From Paraneptunicella aestuarii (lineage in GTDB: Bacteria > Pseudomonadota > Gammaproteobacteria > Enterobacterales > Alteromonadaceae), in contig NZ_CP074570.1 of assembly GCF_019900845.1 (NCBI RefSeq), positions 4,278,001-4,342,000 of the forward strand: DNA of 64,000 nt, read 5' to 3'. Numbering within the stretch: position 1 is the stretch's first letter; each line of letters opens with the position of its first letter. A program made the position numbers and the translations under genes. Below the pieces are notes generated by a model that did not search any database, was not told the origin of the DNA, and saw only the letters and a list, made by a program, of their open reading frames with translations. Positions 43,412 to 48,202 of this stretch are shown piece after piece.

Positions 43412-45058
43412 ATGGCAGCAAAAGAAGTCCGTTTTTCCGACGACGCTCGTGCAAAAATGCTTAACGGCGTAAACATCCTTGCTAACGCAGTAAGAGTTAC
43501 TTTGGGTCCTAAAGGCCGTAACGTAGTTTTAGACAAATCTTTCGGCGCTCCTACAATCACTAAAGACGGTGTATCTGTAGCCAAAGAAATCGAACTTGAA
43601 GACAAGTTTGAAAACATGGGCGCTCAAATGGTGAAAGAAGTAGCGTCTAAAGCAAACGACGAAGCAGGTGACGGTACAACTACTGCAACCGTATTAGCGC
43701 AAGCTATCGTAACCGAAGGTTTGAAATCAGTTGCAGCGGGCATGAACCCAATGGATCTGAAACGCGGTATCGACAAAGCGGTAGCCGCTGCTGTTGAGCA
43801 ACTAAAAGCCCTTTCTACCGAATGTAAAGACAGCAAATCTATCGCTCAGGTAGGTACTATCTCTGCTAATGCTGACGAAGAAATCGGTAACATCATTGCA
43901 GAAGCAATGGACAAAGTAGGTCAAGAAGGTGTTATCACTGTAGAAGAAGGCCAGGCTCTGGAAAACGAACTGGACGTTGTAGAAGGTATGCAGTTCGACC
44001 GTGGTTACCTGTCTCCTTACTTCATCAACAATCAGGAAAATGGCACTGTTGAACTAGACAACCCATACATCCTGCTGGTTGACAAAAAAGTTTCTAACAT
44101 TCGCGAATTGCTACCTACTTTGGAAGCTGTTGCAAAAGCATCCAAGCCTCTGTTGATCATCGCTGAAGACGTAGAAGGCGAAGCATTGGCAACATTGGTT
44201 GTAAACAACATGCGCGGCATCGTAAAAGTAGCGGGCGTCAAAGCACCTGGTTTCGGCGACCGTCGTAAAGCCATGTTACAAGACATCGCAACGTTGACTG
44301 GCGGTACTGTTGTTTCTGAAGAAATCGGTATGGAACTGGAAAAAATCCAGTTAGAAGATTTGGGTACAGCAAAACGCGTAGTTATCAATAAAGACAACAC
44401 AACGGTTGTTGATGGCGCGGGCGACCAAGACGCAATCCAGGGTCGTTGCGCTCAAATTCGTCAACAAATCGAAGAATCAACTTCTGACTACGACAAAGAA
44501 AAACTGCAAGAGCGTTTGGCTAAATTGTCTGGCGGCGTAGCAGTTATCAAAGTTGGCGCAGCCACTGAAGTTGAAATGAAAGAGAAGAAAGACCGCGTAG
44601 AAGACGCGCTTCACGCAACTCGCGCAGCGGTTGAAGAAGGCGTAGTACCTGGTGGCGGTGTTGCTTTGGTACGTTGTGCTGCTAAATTGGCAGACCTACA
44701 AGGCGACAATGAAGACCAAACTCACGGCGTGAAATTGGCACTTCGTGCAATGGAAGCTCCTCTACGTCAAATCGCACAAAATGCGGGCGCAGAAGGCTCG
44801 GTTGTTACCAACAATGTTAAAGCTCACGACGGCAACTACGGTTACAACGCAGGTAACGACACCTACGGCGACATGTTGGAAATGGGTATCCTTGACCCAA
44901 CTAAAGTAACGCGCTCTGCATTGCAATTCGCAGCGTCTATTGCCAGCTTGATGATCACCACCGAAGCCATGATTGCTGATGCACCGAAGAAAGACGGTGG
45001 CTCAATGCCTGACATGGGTGGCATGGGCGGCATGGGCGGTATGGGCGGTATGATGTAG
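43412..45058 (+). CDS. groEL: Chaperonin GroEL, stop codon interrupted by a group II intron
   Basis: The 548-residue chaperonin is intact, from [19 protein letters not shown] through [14 protein letters not shown] to the GGM-repeat tail ending in MM. It folds client proteins with GroES. In the genomic sequence the stop reads TAG, but its G is the first base of a group II intron. Joining the exons at 45057/48126 gives TAA. The protein is therefore the same with or without splicing, while the operon's natural terminator lies beyond the intron. Confidence 0.98.
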
Positions 45059-46062
45059 TGCGACGAGAGTCGCACCGCGCTAACGTAACTTTATGATTTC
45101 AATAGAAATATAGAGTTACGTTCCCTTGGGCTGAGTGGTAGACGATACCCTCAGCCACCTTTACTCAGCATTAGCTGAGCCCCTTAAGAACGTTGAAGGT
45201 CAACACATCTAATGTGAACGTTCGAGTTAATGGTCATAAGGATTATGACTTTAATAGCTGACCTAGCCTTCTAAATAATCAGATTTATATCTGCATACTT
45301 CAAAGTATCCATGGCAATGCTGTCTTTGATGGTTATGTCCTCTGGAATATGTCAAATAGCGCAGCGATAGAAGCTGCTTTGATGATTGTCTGACGTATTC
45401 GTCAACGATCAGACCTGTTATTCAGCTAACAGTAGCCTAGGGTTAGTGCGTCTGGAGTGATCCGTTCGTGCGAAGCTACCCAACAATGTACCTCTGCATC
45501 TGCGGATTAATTCACCGTGAGGTGGTTAATGTATTGGTTAAAGGCAAACCGATACGGGGCTAGGCTAGTTGGTATGGTTAACGTAAGTGAACTACTGATA
45601 AACACCGTCAACCGCAATAAGCGAAATGTCTTTGTTACGCTTAGACCAAAAGGTATGTGGCTGGTTATTCCTTTTACATCTGGGAATACGCTGACATTCA
45701 GCCATCGGTGAATAGGTAGAACCTAACCCAACTTTGTCATCAAAGTGGAACTCGGTAAGCCCGACTATCCGCCCGACTTCTCTTTGAGAATGTCAGGCAG
45801 GTGAACCGTAAGGCAAACTGTTGGATAAGCGGGTAAAGGATATTGGAAAAAGCGAATGCCAGTTTGTAATGAGCTGGATAGGGATTCAAGCTTTGTCCCA
45901 ACCGGAAACGGTGCAGACTTCCAATTGGTCTTTAATCGTGTGAAGACGTGTAAAGTCTTTATAAATGCGTTCATCCCGTGGGGAGAAATATCCATCCTCC
46001 TCACGGGAGTAGTAGATATTTCGTTCTCATGGCATGAACTTCTAATTTAGGAGAACAGCAAG

Positions 46063-47721
46063 ATGAGTGCGACATTGTTAGTACCTGCGTTCCCACACAA
46101 ACCGTCGAGTTGGCACAGTATTAACTGGGGTAAAACGCAACGGCAAGTGAGAGGACTACAAGTACGGATCGCGAAGGCGACTAAGGAACAACAATGGCGC
46201 AAAGTGAAAGCTTTGCAACGTATGTTGGTACGTTCGTTTGCAGCCAAAGCAATGGCGGTTAAACGAGTGACGGAGAACAGAGGTAAAGGAACGCCCGGTG
46301 TTGATGGGCAATTGTGGAGTACCCCTGAGTGCAAATGGAGGGCTATTTTTCGATTAACGCGAACAGGTTATAAACCCATGCCTTTACGGCGGGTTTATAT
46401 TCCTAAAGCAAACGGCAAACGCCGTCCTTTAGGCATTCCGACTATGCTTGACAGATCGATGCAAGCTTTATACTTGCTCGCTTTAGAGCCTGTTTCGGAA
46501 ACCACCGCAGATCGAAATAGTTACGGCTTTCGCCCAATGCGTGCTACTGCCGATGCAATCGAGCAATGCTTTGTTGCGTTAAGCAGGAAGAACTCGGCCA
46601 AATGGATCTTGGAAGGCGATATTAAAGGGTGCTTCGACAATATTAGCCACGACTGGTTACTTGCCAATATTCCATTGGATAAACAGGTACTCAGAAAATG
46701 GTTAAAGGCCGGATTCATGGAATCAGGTAATTTGCATCCGACAGATGCTGGTACACCTCAAGGTGGGATTATCTCACCTGTACTGGCAAACATGGCATTA
46801 GATGGTTTGGAATCGTTTCTGGAATCTCATTTTGGGAAAAAGAACACCAAAGCCAGCTATAAAACCAAAGTGAATTTTGTGCGATATGCTGACGACTTCA
46901 TTATTACAGGTATCTCGAAAGAGTTATTGATTGATGAAGTCAAACCACTTGTTGAAGCCTTTATGGCTGACAGGGGTTTGCAGCTATCACCTGAGAAAAC
47001 TTTAGTGACTCATGTGTCGGAAGGCTTTGACTTTCTTGGTCAGAATGTTCGCAGTTATAACGGCAAGCTGTTAATTAAGCCCAGCCGGAAAAACATGCGT
47101 AATTTACTGGCAAAAGTGAAAAGCATTATTTCAGGTAACAAAACGGTGACAGCCAGTTTATTGGTGAAACTGCTTAACCCTGTATTGCAGGGTTGGGCTA
47201 ACTACCATAAACACGTTGTCGCCAAAGAAACCTTTAATTATGTGGATTATCGGGTTTGGAAAATGCTTTGGCAATGGTGCAAACGGAGACATTTAGGTCG
47301 GCGTAAACGATGGATTAAAACGAAATACTTTCATTCCATTGGCAACCGTAGCTGGGTGTTTTCCGGTGAACCAAAACCAGGAGTTAAAGCTTGGCTGGTT
47401 TATACCATGGACACGGAAATTAGGAGGCATATAAAGATCAAAGCAGAAGCTAATCCCTATCTGCCGGAATTTGAGATGTATTTTGAACAGCGCCTTGAGC
47501 GTTTGTGGAAATCCTCAATGAGTGGCAGAGAAAGGTTGCTCACGCTTTGGTTGAGACAAAAGAAACGCTGTGTTATTTGCAACCAACTGATTACCAAAGA
47601 AACAGGATGGCATATTCATCATATTGTGGAACGGGTAAACGGGGGTAGCGACAAACTCAGCAATCTGGTGTTATTGCATCCTAATTGTCATCGGCAAATT
47701 CACCATAGGACAATTATTTAA
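46063..47721 (+). CDS. ltrA: Group II intron-encoded reverse transcriptase/maturase with HNH endonuclease
   Basis: This 552-residue protein appears full length. The reverse transcriptase spans about 60-340 with RRVYIPKANGKRRPLGIP and the catalytic YADD at 275-278. The maturase (X) domain includes LLNPVLQGWANYHKHVV. A C-terminal HNH nuclease (about 500-550) has CVIC, HIHHIVE and LHPNCHRQIHH. It would help splice the intron and insert it into DNA by target-primed reverse transcription. AGGAG lies 11 bases before ATG 46063. All key residues are present, so the intron is probably mobile. The gene symbol is used by analogy to the lactococcal protein. Confidence 0.95.
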   Translation: MSATLLVPAFPHKPSSWHSINWGKTQRQVRGLQVRIAKATKEQQWRKVKALQRMLVRSFAAKAMAVKRVTENRGKGTPGVDGQLWSTPECKWRAIFRLTRTGYKPMPLRRVYIPKANGKRRPLGIPTMLDRSMQALYLLALEPVSETTADRNSYGFRPMRATADAIEQCFVALSRKNSAKWILEGDIKGCFDNISHDWLLANIPLDKQVLRKWLKAGFMESGNLHPTDAGTPQGGIISPVLANMALDGLESFLESHFGKKNTKASYKTKVNFVRYADDFIITGISKELLIDEVKPLVEAFMADRGLQLSPEKTLVTHVSEGFDFLGQNVRSYNGKLLIKPSRKNMRNLLAKVKSIISGNKTVTASLLVKLLNPVLQGWANYHKHVVAKETFNYVDYRVWKMLWQWCKRRHLGRRKRWIKTKYFHSIGNRSWVFSGEPKPGVKAWLVYTMDTEIRRHIKIKAEANPYLPEFEMYFEQRLERLWKSSMSGRERLLTLWLRQKKRCVICNQLITKETGWHIHHIVERVNGGSDKLSNLVLLHPNCHRQIHHRTII

Positions 47722-47858
47722 TCTTTTTTTATTGAGTTTTCATAATTAGCCCATAATTACCAAAACAAGGTTATTGTAGGTTTTGCTGCACACTCTAATC
47801 AAGGTTATGGAAGGATTACTACCTTTCTATTTAATAATTTAAACTATAGGTATTTATC

Positions 47859-48011: not shown

Positions 48012-48050
48012 GTCGCTGGTCTGTACTTAGGTACTGACTTATAAAGGCTT

Positions 48051-48084
48051 GAGCCGTATGCGGGGAAACTCGCACGTACGGTTC
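48051..48084 (+). ncRNA. Group II intron domain V
   Basis: The 34-nt hairpin begins GAGCCGTATG and ends GTACGGTTC, with the AGC catalytic triad at positions 2-4, a two-base bulge and a GAAA tetraloop closed by GCGGG/CTCGC. It is the catalytic core of the ribozyme and shows the insertion is a group II intron rather than a free RT gene. Confidence 0.95.
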
Positions 48085-48202
48085 TTAGGGGAGGGACAGC
48101 CAGCAATGGTTGTTCCTTACCCGACAGCCATTCCATTAAATTCTAACCCTTTAAAATCAAGGGGTTACAAAACTCTGTAGACAGTAATGTAGACAGTAAA
48201 AA

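Follow-up and report, generated by a model that had tools for sequence, protein, structure and literature searches.

A group II intron inside the groEL stop codon recurs across Gammaproteobacteria and holds a variable slot for small genes

How can a mobile element reside at the end of an essential chaperonin gene, and what does it carry there? The groEL locus of Paraneptunicella aestuarii raises both questions. In the window, by which we mean the whole 64,000-nucleotide (nt) stretch of contig NZ_CP074570.1 that was analysed (positions 4,278,001 to 4,342,000, forward strand), groEL occupies 43412–45058 of the plus strand, encodes 548 amino acids (Cpn60_TCP1) and ends GGT ATG ATG TAG. A complete group II intron of 3068 nt (45058–48125, plus strand) shares its opening base, G, with this stop codon. 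The intron starts with GTGCGACGAGAG, and its last bases, up to 48125, are TACCCGAC; the 3' exon opens with the A at 48126 (plus strand). The intron thus splits the stop codon between TA and A, and exons joined in silico read TAA. Because the first base of the intron is G, an unspliced message would stop at TAG and a spliced one at TAA, so that GroEL is predicted to be complete and unaffected in either state, as a preliminary description of this DNA had proposed. We consider it very likely that the element is a site-specific, retro-mobile intron of the groEL stop codon that spreads horizontally and has an exchangeable slot for small genes.

The boundaries of the intron were set by its relatives and by an empty site in Escherichia coli. 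A species-level genome collection was scanned with one pattern comprising a groEL tail and GTGNG, which returned 97 records; the window is not among them. A longer 5' signature, which supports the 5' boundary, is present in 81 of the 97, and the 16 records without it (other TAG endings or chance) were dropped before the counts that follow. The 3' end is visible in 55 of the 81 relatives, reading TACCCGAC in 54 and TACCCAAC in one. The base after the intron is A in 53 of these and G in two, so the predicted spliced codon is TAA or TAG in every such copy. An A lies seven bases before the end in 55 of 55 and is a candidate branch point; the window intron combines this candidate with a GUGYG-type start (GTGCG) and an AY end. 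The preliminary description had placed the start of the intron at the third position of the stop codon, turning TAA into TAG, which is borne out by the 5' signature of the relatives and by the empty site in E. coli. It had also placed the 3' junction at 48125, followed by an A that gives TAA on joining. The Rfam covariance model of domains V and VI ends at the same base and agrees with this assignment; the 5' end rests on comparison instead.

Comparison of groEL 3' ends recovered both empty sites and intron-bearing copies, for example in E. coli. A related intron of 2884 nt is found in groL of three of 5426 complete E. coli genomes (A37, Q5 and GF130), and the three copies are mutually identical over the 3 kb compared. 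Their joined flanks read GGCATGATGTAATTGCCC... and match the 3' end of groL in strain SCU-102, whose site is empty, base for base over the stretch compared (~60 nt downstream and ~30 nt upstream). The A37/Q5/GF130-type locus and SCU-102 share 98.5% identity over 1500 upstream bases and just 40% ungapped identity over 600 bases downstream; we ascribe the low downstream value to a minor difference in length ahead of yjeI, as judged from annotation. Megablast of the three genomes found the maturase gene at groL and no other near copy.

Base pairing between intron and exon suggests how the groEL end is recognized. The last six bases of the 5' exon, GATGTA (intron-binding site 1, IBS1; 45052–45057, plus strand), are complementary to TACATC (exon-binding site 1, EBS1; 45675–45680, plus strand), which lies in a hairpin loop of the intron. 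Among 64 relatives with a domain I and an available intron sequence longer than 1000 nt, all but the truncated copy L066 share the loop motif TTACATCT[AG]G (63 of 64). Two sister introns, L014 and L015 (maturase identity 54–55%), immediately follow the stop codons of genes other than groEL, whereas the window intron lies inside one. Their EBS1 loops fit their own targets, TTAGCCT for an exon ending in AGGCTAA and CTATCGT for one ending in ACGATAG. The reading frames upstream are open to the end of each locus, over 102 and 64 codons, and the host genes, judged by eye, encode glyceraldehyde-3-phosphate dehydrogenase (L014) and ribosomal protein S9 (L015). From these two sisters, the wider lineage seems to prefer the stop codons of housekeeping genes.

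The interior of the window intron contains the expected RNA domains and a maturase, all on the plus strand. The domain I block (RF02012, group-II-D1D4-7; 91.1 bits, gathering threshold 34) spans 45414–45559 and starts 356 nt past the 5' end, which leaves a long 5' extension (45058–45413) that opens with a possible hairpin, GTGCGAC-GAGA-GTCGCAC. Domain I likewise starts ~300–550 nt into the intron in most relatives with a domain I match. In this feature the window intron resembles the bacterial group II introns with a large 5' insertion that were reportedly described by Michel, Costa, Doucet and Ferat in 2007. Two relatives have unusual domain I regions: it is present in two tandem copies in L073 (Zobellella) and contains an insertion of ~2.4 kb in L099 (Halomonas socia). 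The intron-encoded protein (46063–47721; 552 amino acids, free of internal stops) comprises RVT_N, RVT_1 with YADD at residue 275, the GIIM maturase domain and HNH, and it scores 374 bits against NCBIfam group_II_RT_mat (cut-off 300). The 4.9-Mb genome contains five other maturase matches, all of them remote (≤33% identity). Domains V and VI (RF00029, Intron_gpII; 66.9 bits, gathering threshold 40) occupy 48049–48125 and include the conserved A. We assume that the intron belongs to subclass IIB, by its kinship with the intron of Azotobacter vinelandii. Downstream of the intron, a tandem repeat of CACGTCGG in 5.6 perfect copies spans 48425–48469.

The 81 intron-bearing records represent 37 named genera, 17 named families and 8 named orders, all of these orders in the Gammaproteobacteria; their number is a lower bound, since the pattern demands one groEL tail. 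The preliminary description had linked the site to Azotobacter and suggested that a second host lineage would mark this codon as a recurrent homing site. Indeed, the same junction is present in A. vinelandii CA (L084) and A. chroococcum DSM 2286 (L064), and with at least 37 named genera the recurrence extends well beyond a second lineage. Occupancy is sparse. Under a stricter pattern, one of 369 sampled genomes of the class was occupied, namely that of the window. Within the window's family, the tail pattern matched in 117 of 147 genomes. Besides the window, 21 of 24 TAG-ending groEL sites of the family were looked at (G684, G746 and G682 were left out), and among the sites looked at the family has five genomes with the intron, the window included, and one remnant. 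Intron-free groEL genes of this family end in TAGTC... in L161, L165, L166, L167, L172 and L177; these endings could be scars of lost introns, whose first bases are GT and last base C, or chance. At L160 and L175, two groEL-tail matches lie 1.64 kb apart on the same strand, which suggests tandem groEL copies.

The phylogeny of the maturases places the groEL introns together. In a tree built by quick search, 53 of them, including A. vinelandii, form one clade relative to nine outgroup rows (SH-aLRT, the Shimodaira-Hasegawa-like approximate likelihood ratio test, 100), and Azotobacter is one twig of it. Two of the 53 rows (L096x and L107x) are pieces lacking a groEL junction that were assigned by genome. 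L170 duplicates L113 and took its place in the trees, the count of slot open reading frames (ORFs) and the shuffle test. Three partial introns (L201, L204 and L205), two of them compact and one with cargo, are probably the 3' portions of groEL introns and were excluded.

Identity of maturases exceeds that of the GroEL proteins of their hosts in six of 11 pairs. Salinivibrio and Vibrio mimicus share 96.2% in maturase and 85.7% in GroEL (315 GroEL residues), and two Halomonas share 97.5% and 93.6%, respectively; the other four pairs are Salinivibrio with Photobacterium halotolerans, P. halotolerans with V. mimicus, V. penaeicida with V. mimicus, and two Colwellia records. We read this as repeated horizontal transfer, mostly within families. 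Two observations speak against free movement. The introns group mostly by host family in the maturase tree, which limits how freely they move. The maturase is not more alike in the other five pairs (E. coli with Citrobacter, two Pseudoalteromonas, and the window with Alteromonas, V. mimicus and A. vinelandii). Decayed copies retain the TAG stop, eight of them shortened by deletion (L033, L046, L066, L075, L080, L082, L110 and L128) and two, L035 and L060, apparently interrupted by other insertions, as judged from missing domains and from reading of the sequence; this retention is partly by construction, because the pattern demands the 5' end of the intron and copies without its first bases escape detection. 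A single ancient insertion in a gammaproteobacterial ancestor, followed by vertical inheritance and many losses, would fit the one clade with its broad grouping by host family, the existence of decay products and the pairs in which GroEL is the more alike protein. We nevertheless regard it as improbable, because presence is very patchy (the three E. coli genomes and the one sampled class genome above) and because maturase identity surpasses GroEL identity between host genera, as between Salinivibrio and V. mimicus.

Repeated transfer of the intron is accompanied by variation in what it carries. The preliminary description had the boundaries right; a second ORF and a variable slot were absent from it. 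In the window intron the slot is a part of domain IV between the maturase stop and domain V (47722–48048, plus strand; 327 nt), and it contains a gene for a 50-amino-acid DUF1508 protein (47859–48011, plus strand; PF07411, 31.2 bits, cut-off 22). This gene is the sole DUF1508 match in the genome, and its product is 84% identical to the cargo of the V. mimicus groEL intron. We defined as complete the 55 of the 81 copies in which DNA reaches the maturase match (~430 amino acids or more) and domain V. A slot of 238–872 nt is present in 45 of them, and 37 of these filled slots have a plus-strand ORF of at least 45 amino acids. Plus-strand ATG ORFs of at least 50 amino acids occur in 28 of 42 slots versus a mean of 4.6 after shuffling; on the minus strand they occur in 11 of 42. 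The spacing between maturase and domain V is just 39–90 nt in all 15 outgroup introns measured, in which no groEL junction was detected.

BLAST clustering of the cargo revealed nine recurring families and further ORFs that are unique. DUF2188 proteins are encoded in 12 copies including L124, 11 of which are among the 55; Lambda_ea8_5-like proteins in four (with a Pfam match on two); and DUF1508 proteins in three (with a Pfam match on that of the window). For the six other families, the members searched against Pfam yielded nothing above cut-off. Inspection by eye added a tenth recurring family (L042 and L121), and the cargo ORF of L044 has a match to NarE below cut-off. DUF2188 cargo matches PADLOC PDC-S16 (3e-41), which makes it a candidate defence protein; PADLOC analysis of ten cargo or window proteins gave no match besides DUF2188. 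In each of eight cargo families tested, nonsynonymous divergence is lower than synonymous divergence, with medians of 0.22 and 0.85 for DUF2188; constraint is weaker in some cargo pairs, where the ratio reaches 0.72. The sequences thus show that cargo proteins are under constraint. With a possible prophage origin of the cargo in mind, phage records were compared: they match DUF2188 (28 records) and, weakly, DUF1508 (22), whereas the ea8.5-like and YjcQ-like cargo match zero phage records.

Not every copy conforms to this description of the slot as a site for genes. Ten of the 55 complete copies, A. vinelandii among them, are free of cargo, with fewer than 60 nt between maturase and domain V; seven are Pseudomonas, Azotobacter and Atopomonas records, and the others are from Nitrincola, Citrobacter and Zobellella. 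Eight of the 45 filled slots are without a plus-strand ORF of at least 45 amino acids, and four of these eight contain the RNA module described below. Promoter-like sites precede nine of 30 cargo ORFs compared with 11.3 in shuffles. The eight filled slots without such an ORF, together with the location in domain IV, where insertions are tolerated, would fit the notion that the extra ORFs are chance or decaying frames, or else helpers of splicing, rather than cargo. Such an origin has little probability given the excess of plus-strand ORFs over shuffled slots, the mainly synonymous divergence and the nine families that separate in clustering; the ten copies without cargo would not be compatible with a required splicing helper. 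Own promoters for the cargo were rejected, since promoter-like sites are not above chance. Expression therefore rests on assumed read-through from groE, and we infer that the cargo is expressed from the groE transcript. A Shine-Dalgarno-like stretch precedes 23 of 36 cargo ORFs, as scored with a loose motif and without a control. Starts of the 39 cargo ORFs used for the promoter and spacing analyses were entered by hand.

The slot can also contain RNA that does not encode protein. A conserved non-coding module of ~270–330 nt is present in six copies (L033, L047, L054, L097, L127 and L053), and in L053 it follows DUF2188. The six modules correspond to L190:1120–1440 on the minus strand and to L189, L185, L186, L033 and L127. 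Rfam yielded no match within the module in the five of six copies searched. In the consensus fold, 15 of 42 pairs are changed on both sides, and the 5' 107 columns contain 26 pairs, which are preserved in 92% of cells. None of 500 shuffles of these columns reached the observed covariation score or count of two-sided changes, and sliding the structure along the module lowers both; the test is limited to six related sequences, from which the structure itself was derived. The module was found in none of 274 class genomes searched for a free-living genomic home (a set without a positive control) and in no plasmid or E. coli sequence. A weak relative is present in one viral contig (L212:408–513), where it lies 3' of ORFs that by eye resemble the phage lysis genes Rz/Rz1 and upstream of an ORF of 136 amino acids, in which a resemblance to one cargo family was noted by eye.

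Close relatives reveal how quickly the slot changes. Nine pairs of closely related introns differ in cargo. Within these pairs, identity is 94–99% upstream of the maturase and 93–98% in the maturase gene, while the slots are 41–49% identical, compared with 37–50% (mean 43%) for a shuffled partner. Slot identity is a coarse measure, as four slot pairs with cargo of the same family score 49–75%. Identity rises again to 78–90% in the 120-nt 3' segment, which comprises 35 nt of the domain IV stem and domains V–VI. Of 16 segments along the maturase gene, the final 100 nt show the lowest identity in eight of the nine pairs (mean 0.76 versus 0.92–0.97); the ninth pair, L113/L096x, lacks a drop at the end of the gene. 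On the maturase tree, cargo family requires 15 changes, compared with a mean of 15.2 in 1000 shuffles, 575 of which were as low or lower. This test included 27 introns and eight families; families B, E and H and those with a single member were left out, and L078, which carries both DUF1508 and DUF2188, was scored as DUF2188. Domain VI type, by contrast, mostly tracks the tree (five changes versus 16 shuffled), which qualifies the exchange proposed here: whole 3' ends are not freely swapped. Together, the pair identities, the cargo shuffles and the contrast with domain VI indicate faster turnover in the slot than elsewhere in the intron.

Homologous recombination and template switching by the reverse transcriptase would account equally for this pattern of slot exchange. 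Capture of integron gene cassettes through attC sites, which would account for small accessory ORFs with fast turnover and a single orientation, is very improbable, because in 29 of 39 cargo ORFs just 9–74 nt, part of it domain IV stem, separate the stop codon from domain V (150–550 nt in the remaining ten) and leave little or no room for the usual attC site, a judgement made with no dedicated attC search.

The closest known system is the groEL intron of A. vinelandii (A.v.I1, or Avi.groEL), reportedly described by Ferat, Le Gouar and Michel in 2003. It shares with the window intron the insertion point in the groEL stop codon, the 5' and 3' ends and the EBS1 motif, and its maturase is 73% identical and falls in the same clade. 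It differs in having no slot: its maturase frame enters domain V (gap −12), while the window intron has 327 nt with DUF1508 at this position. A domain IV that holds the maturase alone, a trait of A. vinelandii that does not define the lineage, is thus not found in the window intron. A table in PMC8283771 lists A.v.I1 in its IIB column. According to PMC4465626, the copy in A. chroococcum NCIMB 8003 does not coincide exactly with the groEL stop codon; that of strain DSM 2286 (L064), in contrast, lies exactly within it. For engineered introns, PMC3898094 names domain IV as the best location for targetron cargo. The window intron resembles targetrons in having a foreign gene in domain IV; it differs in having natural cargo, which varies between relatives and, in the copies examined, is located between the maturase and domain V. 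Group II introns, the Azotobacter intron of the groEL stop and engineered cargo in domain IV are therefore known. In open-access PubMed Central text, neither natural cargo in groEL introns nor groEL introns outside Azotobacter were found among the matches listed. To the extent of these searches, three findings are new: how widely the site is occupied, a variable slot with natural cargo, and the RNA module.

These findings suggest a model for the life of the intron. The intron RNA would find the groEL end through pairing of TACATC with GATGTA and insert between TA and A of the stop codon. Retrohoming to empty groEL sites would carry it horizontally to further hosts, and decayed copies that keep their 5' end would leave a valid stop behind. 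The passenger in the slot, here DUF1508, probably owes its transcription to the groE promoter and may often be replaced, either by recombination or by template switching; in the latter case, the reverse transcriptase would begin copying at the 3' end of the intron, where the cargo lies. More tentatively, and with doubt, we propose that the element is a natural retro-mobile platform for gene cassettes, which would combine a cost-free codon, a stress-driven groE transcript and quick exchange of passengers. Some of the benefit to hosts may be anti-phage, in the manner of a minimal defence island; DUF2188, and possibly the structured RNA, would be the passengers concerned.

What appeared to be a curiosity of Azotobacter is thus a homing site in an essential gene across the Gammaproteobacteria. 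The target between TA and A, together with natural tolerance of cargo, would be of interest for intron-based gene delivery. If the slot is what it appears to be, the cargo list would provide a short testable set of small proteins, among them a candidate for phage defence, and one structured RNA, and group II introns would join transposons and integrons as natural vehicles of accessory genes.

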